Origin: Symbiotaphrina buchneri
Taxonomy: Eukaryota > Ascomycota > Symbiotaphrinales > Symbiotaphrinaceae
Length of the DNA: 64,000 nucleotides
Reading direction: 5' to 3'
Assembly (NCBI GenBank): GCA_001599915.1
Contig: BCIG01000003.1
Span: forward strand, 806,001-870,000
A model generated the notes under the pieces. It was not told where the DNA came from and searched no databases. It was given only the letters and a program-made list of their open reading frames with translations. Shown here piece by piece: positions 2,246 to 19,555 of the stretch (the stretch's first letter is position 1; each line of letters starts with the position of its first letter). The translations under genes were made by a program, and so were the position numbers.

Positions 2246-2769
2246 ATGCTCGGCCGTCGGAAGCATTGTTCTTGCAATAGTGGGCTCCTGCCTACCTTGA
2301 CTCCGCTGGGTTTACTGGCGTTGGTCCTGCCAAAGGATTCATATGCGCAGCTTACTTCAACAACTTCTGGGTCACCGCCAGCATCTATGACATCAGCAGA
2401 TTCAAGCATTCTAGCTACCACTTCACCTTCCAGCGCATTACGAGCTACATCGTCCTCCGCATCAAGCACAACGCTCTCGACCTCCACCGTACCATCCTCG
2501 AATGCAGCAACATCCGCCTCCCCCTCCGACACGCTCTCTCCGGCCGCCACGCCCTCCGACTCCAATGGGGCGCCCATAACATCCGGCGAAGGGCTCGCGG
2601 CAAATTTCTACTTCTGCTTCCTGGGCATCCTCGTCGTCCTCGCCGTGCTGGCCTTCTACATCATGCGCCGCCGCAAGCGGCGACGAAAGGCCCACCGGAT
2701 CCAAGACCGCACCAATGCCCTTTCCCAGGACCTCGAGGGCTGGGTTCGCGAAGGCGGATGGCCGGGATG

Positions 2770-3358
2770 TTGTTCCTAGAAGTATAAAACAAGAAGATAG
2801 ACCACCTAATAAAAAATAAGTNAGACCACCTGAAGTAGCTAACTCTGAATTTCTATATAATGTAGCTAATAAATATAAACCGTAACTTTGTAATTCTATA
2901 GATAGAAAGATAGAAACTAAGTCACTAGTAGAAACCAGAAAAGTANCTCCTGNAACAGTGAATAGTAAAATTAATGGGTATTCTATTATTGTAAACTGCT
3001 CTCCCATTTNATTAATTATCTTTGTTTTATAATAATTTAATTTACAAAAGAATAATNTATAGAATGAAGAGTATTCTTTTAGCCAAACCTTTGTTGGATA
3101 AAAGCCAGTCAGTTGTAAAATAACAGAACTTATTATAAATATAAACAAGTGAAATACTTNTGTAGTGGATGTAACATGGTATAAACCTCCATATAGTCCT
3201 ATACCTTTATCTATATATGTAATATATAAATTTTTCAGGACGAGCATAGAACAATAAAGTAATATTATTATAGCTGCTCTAGAAAATAGTATAGATTTGT
3301 CTCGTCTTAAAGTGACGGCATTTGATAACAATAATGAGAAAATTGAGTAAATTAACAT
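2770..3358 (-). pseudogene. nad2: nad2 5' fragment (NADH dehydrogenase subunit 2), mitochondrial origin
   Basis: Minus-strand frame opening with MLIYSIFSLLLSNAVTLRRD and running through [31 protein letters not shown] and YFLLGGLSSCFILLG, which are hallmark stretches of fungal mitochondrial ND2, a proton-pumping membrane subunit of complex I. The frame is open for about 196 codons apart from codons containing N, then runs into nuclear sequence. The full protein has well over 500 residues, so this is the N-terminal third. The lack of visible decay suggests a recent transfer or an assembly artefact. It would not be expressed usefully from the nucleus. Confidence 0.9.
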
Positions 3359-3359
3359 T

Positions 3360-3432
3360 ANCCAGGAGAGAAATTCGAATTCTCATTATTAATGCATGAA
3401 ATTAATGTTCTAACCTGTTGAACTATCCTGGC
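3360..3432 (-). tRNA. tRNA-Met (CAU), mitochondrial type, inside the insert
   Basis: The minus strand folds as a cloverleaf: 5' acceptor strand GCCAGGA against TCCTGG plus one N, anticodon stem TTAAT/ATTAA around loop TTCATGC with anticodon CAT, and a T arm with loop TTCGAAT. It lies one or two bases upstream of the nad2 start. Present because of the mitochondrial insertion; a nuclear function is unlikely. Confidence 0.85.
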
Positions 3433-3513
3433 TATTTATATATTTTTATTGTTCCTAAATAAATATTTAATAACTTAACGATTAGTTAAATCATAATTAT
3501 TATAATAAAAAGT

Positions 3514-3547
3514 TGCTCAAGATAAGATTTGAACTTATAACCTGAGG
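3514..3547 (-). pseudogene. 3' part of a mitochondrial tRNA, cut by the insertion border
   Basis: On the minus strand a T arm (stem ATAAG/CTTAT around loop TTCAAAT) is followed by a 3' acceptor strand CTTGAGC and discriminator A. The anticodon and D arms are missing because nuclear sequence begins here. Identity cannot be read without the anticodon. Confidence 0.65.
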
Positions 3548-3799
3548 TTTGGCCGTGGAGGGGTTTGGAGGAATAGAGCGGCGGAAGAAGAGGGCCTGGA
3601 TGAGAGGGAAGAGGCGCCCCCGCCGTATGCGATGCATAGTGAGCATCCGAGACCGGGTGATCCTCAGGGGACTGGTCAGGGTATGGCGCAGGCGCCGCAG
3701 TCGAATTTGACGTTGCCGGTGCCCGCGTTGCGGCCACTTGATGCGCATGGGCGGGCGCCGCCTAGGTATGAAGAGTCGCTTCGCGGTGCGAATGGGTGA

Positions 3800-19342: not shown

Positions 19343-19431
19343 AGGGAGGACAAGGCCTTATGGAGGGGCTGGCGGCTTCTGGGTGGATAGTAGAAGTAAA
19401 AAAAAAAAAGCTTATAATAATTTCTGCTCAA

Positions 19432-19555
19432 ATAATGCCTTTATTTTCTATATTATTCTTTATATTATCTTTAGGTAATTTAACTTTAGGAAAAGAAATC
19501 AAACGAGATAATGCCTTTATTTTCTATATTATTCTTTATATTATCTTTAGGTAAT
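19432..19555 (+). repeat. 48-bp AT-rich direct repeat, two copies 76 bp apart
   Basis: The same 48 bases, beginning ATAATGCCTTTATTTTCTAT, occur at 19432-19479 and 19508-19555. A run of A's precedes at 19398-19409. The block is much more AT-rich than its surroundings. Confidence 0.92.

Follow-up and report, generated by a model that had tools for sequence, protein, structure and literature searches.

The interrupted gene and the mitochondrial segment

The window, i.e., the whole 64,000-base stretch analysed here (C3:806001-870000), belongs to an assembly of 23,383,419 bases in 82 contigs, and near its start a block of AT-rich DNA is flanked on both sides by open coding frames that lie on the same strand of one 917,765-bp contig (Table 1). 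The left frame, the 5' part of a nuclear gene, encodes an N-terminal hydrophobic stretch, a Ser/Thr-rich region, one membrane anchor and an RRRKRRRK basic stretch, while the right frame, the 3' part or tail, carries the motifs APPPY and APPRY. Of the three frames of the tail region, one is open and the others contain 1 and 8 stops, and an aldo/keto reductase gene (PF00248) is found downstream of the interrupted gene. The GC fraction drops from ~0.6 to ~0.26 at about position 2770 and goes back up at about 3545.

Table 1. Features of the interrupted gene, of the mitochondrial insert and of the second mitochondrial-like insert of the window
Feature	Coordinates	Strand	Remarks
5' part of nuclear gene	2246..2764	plus	open frame, 173 codons
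Mitochondrial insert	2765..3550	minus	26% GC; contains 7/7 window Ns
nad2 codons 1-196, mitochondrial code	2770..3358	minus	ATG at 3358; 0 stops, 0 frameshifts; 6 Ns
Premature stop TAG	2777..2779	plus	left frame reads ...GWPGCCS, then stop
Mitochondrial tRNA-Met, anticodon CAT	3359..3433	minus	ARAGORN and Rfam; complete save one N in acceptor stem
Second mitochondrial tRNA, 3' part (T arm and acceptor 3' strand)	3514..3550	minus	by eye; right border cuts it
3' part of nuclear gene	3551..3799	plus	open frame, 82 codons and natural stop
Second mitochondrial-like insert of the window, nad4-like	19426..19555	plus	two copies (19426-19480, 55 bp; 19508-19555, 48 bp); no N

The AT-rich block is mitochondrial DNA, which reads contiguously on the minus strand, beginning with a tRNA truncated to its 3' part and continuing through tRNA-Met into ~196 codons of nad2. 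The Rfam match of the tRNA-Met (RF00005) scores 57.6 bits with an E-value of 1.7e-11, while ARAGORN gave no call for the other tRNA, as expected for a partial gene. The best PDB match of the nad2 piece is NADH dehydrogenase subunit 2 in 7zm7 (residues 1-196 on 1-194, E 6.6e-77), which we take to be a fungal nad2, and the Pfam family PF00361 matches residues 145-195 with 28 bits against a cut-off of 21.5. Together with intron-like gaps and the style of the genes, the nad2 match suggests that the assembly is from a filamentous fungus. A preliminary description of the locus had proposed a segment of ~0.78 kb of AT-rich mitochondrial DNA composed of part of a tRNA, tRNA-Met and the start of nad2, and the GC drop, ARAGORN, Rfam, PDB and Pfam all agree with it. 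Its borders are amended here to about 2765-2771 on the left and about 3547-3550 on the right, with an uncertainty of ~6 and ~3 bases, respectively. The nad2 piece is also open when read by the standard code and continues into the antisense strand of the nuclear gene, giving a 298-codon open frame (window 2462-3358, minus strand) that is probably due to chance.

The placement of the insert between the membrane anchor and the PPPY tail stands, since the frames on either side are open and share a strand, and the position, strand, frame and composition of the two flanking parts suggest that they derive from one ancestral gene, as had been assumed at the outset. Removal of 786 bases (2765-3550; 3 x 262) preserves the frame between the two parts, which is weak evidence given an uncertainty of several bases at the borders. 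Judged from these sequence features, the interrupted gene appears to encode a protein that crosses the membrane once and carries two PY-type motifs in its C-terminal part. Pfam gave five matches to the 5' part, every one below its cut-off, and zero to the 3' part. A second copy was found in the assembly neither for the 5' part by a DNA search nor for the 3' part by a protein search.

An insert in this position might be tolerated if it were removed within a newly formed intron so that a usable protein still resulted, and both flanks are indeed still open. Among the GTs in 2600-2780 and the YAGs in 3501-3700 that were weighed as splice sites, phase-compatible pairs are formed by the GT at 2744 (phase 0) with the YAG at 3665, 3677, 3689 or 3698. 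However, these pairs lie well outside the borders of the insert, the APPPY codons would be removed too, and the sequence at the GT at 2744 (TGG-GTTCGC) makes a poor donor. The GTs closest to the border (2769 and 2772) are in phase 1, whereas phase 2 would be required for the right-border AG (3545-3546). We therefore regard splicing of the insert as extremely improbable.

Mitochondrial-like sequences elsewhere in the assembly

The insert does not stand alone, as mitochondrial-like sequence was also recovered at 16 further places. Searches with mitochondrial DNA pieces and families yielded 17 such places on 14 contigs, namely C2, C3 (two), C4, C6, C7, C9, C11, C13, C14, C15 (two), C16, C17, C24 (two) and C38, a load that is only sampled by these searches. 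The sequence was read for 13 of them, while C6, both places on C24 and one on C15 are taken from match tables only. Family matches above the cut-off were obtained for this insert and C13 (PF00361), for C9 (PF00033), and for C11 and C6 (PF00146); the cytochrome b match of C17, with 26.7 bits, is just below the cut-off of 27.2. The remaining places are defined by sequence that they share with the family-anchored ones or with C16, which is itself defined by sharing with C13.

Two of these places match the same mitochondrial stretch as the insert, over 68 bp at C38 and 58 bp at C7; both are free of Ns, and their matches end well inside the query. The insert is identical to C38 at 68/68 and to C7 at 57/57 determined bases. 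Both pieces are within the span of one ordinary read and are too short to be easily explained as a bridging artefact, and therefore they raise the prior probability that the insert is real. The nad1-like frames of C11 and C6 contain nine stops (one of them TGA) and two stops by the standard code, respectively, thus older copies seem to exist. Neither a cox1 or cox3 match nor a second long nad2 was found in the assembly, and from the lack of cox1 and cox3 matches the organelle genome seems to be absent from the record. The joining of a whole mitochondrial contig at the locus was considered and rejected, because the assembly has no cox1 or cox3 match and parts of a nuclear gene lie on both sides of the insert.

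Several further observations were made on these sequences. The nad4-like piece of the second insert in the window recurs at C13; the ends of its two copies in the window coincide to within one base, their starts differ, and the C13 family match ends at about the same point, which is possibly a fixed break point in mtDNA. Four places, C13 (L008 1520-2054), C17 (L037 1390-1730), C4 (L043) and C2 (L044), appear by eye to be patchwork-like and composed of short rearranged pieces, with an exact 74-bp stretch common to C4 and C2. Isolated Ns also occur in two more long mitochondrial inserts, at C16 (L032 1504-1996) and C9 (L036 1283-2417). At C11 (L040), a 363-bp inverted repeat (711-1073 and 2708-3070, 78% identity) flanks AT-rich DNA that holds mitochondrial-like pieces. 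One sampled stretch, C10:300001-310000 (L026), has 27% GC compared with 50-56% in the other 19 sampled stretches and looks like a mutated repeat or a centromere-like region.

Uncalled bases and the reality of the insert

The window has seven uncalled bases (Ns), all of them single (2822, 2946, 2953, 3010, 3057, 3160 and 3361), and all fall in the insert, the probability of which by chance is about 4e-14. No Ns, isolated or in runs, occur in 20 sampled 10-kb stretches (200 kb), 11 of which are from the same contig. When the 13 mitochondrial-like loci available as letters were read for Ns, isolated Ns were present in three, i.e., this insert (7), C16 (3) and C9 (4, as well as 265 consecutive Ns), whose AT blocks measure 764 bp, 493 bp and 1135 bp, respectively. 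No N lies outside the AT block in any of the 13 loci, and among the sequence read Ns are thus confined to mitochondrial inserts. The ten loci that have no isolated Ns, which count against the favoured explanation given below, include AT blocks of similar or nearly similar length at C13 (535 bp), C2 (460 bp) and C4 (357 bp), and also C14, whose 793-bp AT block has a 100-N run in a (TTA)n stretch. The AT blocks of C11 (3046 bp) and C38 (264 bp) include other AT-rich DNA and their lengths are uninformative. Runs of Ns may be either gaps or withheld letters.

Six of the seven Ns fall in nad2 codons, where five are residue-changing for any pair of bases and two could possibly give a stop. A random change in the nad2 fragment alters the residue in 0.70-0.77 of cases, and the observed five of six match this neutral expectation; if 20% were expected, which is an assumed value, at least five residue-changing sites among only six would have a probability of 0.0016. 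The seven Ns of C9 and C16, assessed by eye from translations, are less one-sided: one is silent, two are possibly silent, two are residue-changing, another is residue-changing in an unnamed frame and the last one lies outside any identified frame. A context bias at the N sites of the insert (by eye, an A comes next at five of the seven on one strand) was dropped because of too few sites. The claim that the nad2 frame shows no decay had to be given up, as possible decay may hide under the Ns.

We infer that the Ns mark sites where the reads of a nuclear copy and the abundant mitochondrial reads were merged and differ. If so, about 0.9% of the copy, or some 7 of its 779-786 bases, would deviate from mtDNA. 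The consulted part of the Pilon paper describes ambiguous calls at positions where reads from several copies pile up on one (PMC4237348). According to the same excerpt, Ns are not added by Pilon under its default settings (PMC4237348), and the program behind the assembly discussed here may differ. In the excerpts of the literature on isolated Ns consulted, no rule was found that would trace them to the output format of one assembler.

The insert could also be real and its Ns of another origin, either two mitochondrial types, as in heteroplasmy or a mixture of strains, or reads of low quality, in which case the nuclear copy might be identical to mtDNA and very recent. The complete match of the determined bases to the two other nuclear copies fits this explanation. 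However, differences between two functional mitochondrial types are expected chiefly at silent sites, whereas five of the six codon Ns are residue-changing. This argument does not touch low read quality, which would also produce a random codon pattern. Altogether, we hold an origin of the Ns in two mitochondrial types or poor reads to be very improbable.

A more serious competitor is an assembly artefact, in which the plentiful mitochondrial reads closed a gap or weak spot in a gene that is intact in the strain, with the Ns as traces of a poor bridge. The concentration of all seven Ns of the window in one place is a local sign of weak assembly, Ns also occur in the inserts at C16 and C9, with 265 of them in one run in the latter, and 100 consecutive Ns are present at C14. 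Low coverage or careless gap filling would likewise leave bases uncalled; moreover, the insert is longer than one short read, and as a mitochondrial contig was not seen, the mitochondrial reads may have gone elsewhere. On the other hand, the complete lack of Ns in the 200 kb sampled indicates that gaps are rare there, and the flanks, which share a strand, have frames that are compatible and complement each other as parts of a gene, argue against an artefact as well as against a chimera of unrelated loci. The N-free pieces at C38 and C7 show that mitochondrial DNA has been taken up by the nucleus, and a filler of purely mitochondrial origin is unlikely to be ambiguous at residue-changing sites. 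An artefact thus appears unlikely to us, and a nuclear copy of mtDNA (NUMT) is better supported, with the artefact as the weaker explanation that is still alive.

Origin of the insert and comparison with known NUMTs

In our view, the insert is quite probably a real NUMT that was captured by end joining in a nuclear exon, its Ns having arisen from merged reads. According to this model, a double-strand break would have occurred inside an exon of the gene for which the searches gave no second copy, and a fragment of ~0.78 kb of the fungus's own mtDNA, reaching from the partial tRNA over tRNA-Met to the start of nad2, would have been captured there by end joining. The insert contributes the in-frame TAG a few codons beyond the left border, and the predicted product would retain the anchor and lose the 82-residue tail. 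During assembly, the abundant mitochondrial reads may have been merged with those of the nuclear copy, leaving single Ns at the differences. The identity of the insert to the nuclear copies at C38 and C7 and the nad2 frame, open apart from the Ns, support a fairly young age of the NUMT.

The PY-type motifs of a membrane protein could recruit a ubiquitin ligase of the Nedd4/Rsp5 type, and the loss of these motifs with the tail could prevent such recruitment. On this basis it is conceivable that a young NUMT remodelled a working membrane protein, with the new stop after the anchor giving rise to a longer-lived short surface protein in the lineage, which we consider very improbable. The preliminary description had seen in the locus a recent NUMT that knocks out a surface protein. 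From this proposal we retain the mitochondrial origin, the position in the frame and the youth of the insert; that the gene was functional and is knocked out in the strain goes further than the data, and loss of function is best worded as a predicted consequence of the stop.

If the insert is real, it provides a clean fungal example of mtDNA breaking a gene, and the genome, which is seemingly rich in such insertions, could serve to estimate the frequency of mtDNA entry into coding sequence. The practical lesson is that isolated Ns in an assembly can flag long NUMTs, and that a seemingly undecayed frame of a NUMT is not to be trusted where nuclear and mitochondrial reads may be merged.

The proposed route corresponds to the accepted one, since the available part of a NUMT review gives end joining at a double-strand break, with or without microhomology of 1-7 bp, as the way in which NUMTs are formed (PMC2820518), and in yeast the capture of mtDNA depends on break repair, as stated in an excerpt of the respective study (PMC515365). 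Human NUMTs in exons that introduce a premature stop are known, e.g., a 72-bp insertion in exon 14 of GLI3 (PMC2820518). With the NUMTs covered in the consulted part of that review, the insert described here has in common the presence of mtDNA in nuclear sequence, the premature stop resulting from insertion into an exon and, as proposed, the capture at a double-strand break by end joining; it differs in that the gene is a fungal nuclear gene, the insert contains seven Ns and the case is known from an assembly alone (PMC2820518). As for the load, the same excerpt lists 77 kb of NUMTs in Phaeosphaeria nodorum and a table value of 25.47, taken here as kb, for Aspergillus oryzae (PMC2820518). Both are filamentous fungi with many mitochondrial pieces, as appears to be the case here, where the total is only sampled. 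No fungal NUMT breaking a gene was suggested among the literature matches listed, which is not proof of absence.

A further comparison is offered by Penicillium rubens, a filamentous ascomycete in which, according to the part of the study consulted, two NUMTs, 10 kb and 500 bp long, vary in presence by strain (PMC12125605). Organelle reads pile up over these NUMTs, which were confirmed by PCR and show a depth of ~750x compared with 60x, and removal of the mitochondrial reads led to gaps (PMC12125605), in line with the merging of reads proposed here. However, the NUMTs of P. rubens are intergenic and the comparison in the consulted part of that study includes no disrupted coding region (PMC12125605), whereas the insert described here lies within a reading frame. 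In the portion of the literature looked at, a fungal NUMT inside a reading frame is therefore uncommon, while NUMTs as a kind are well known.
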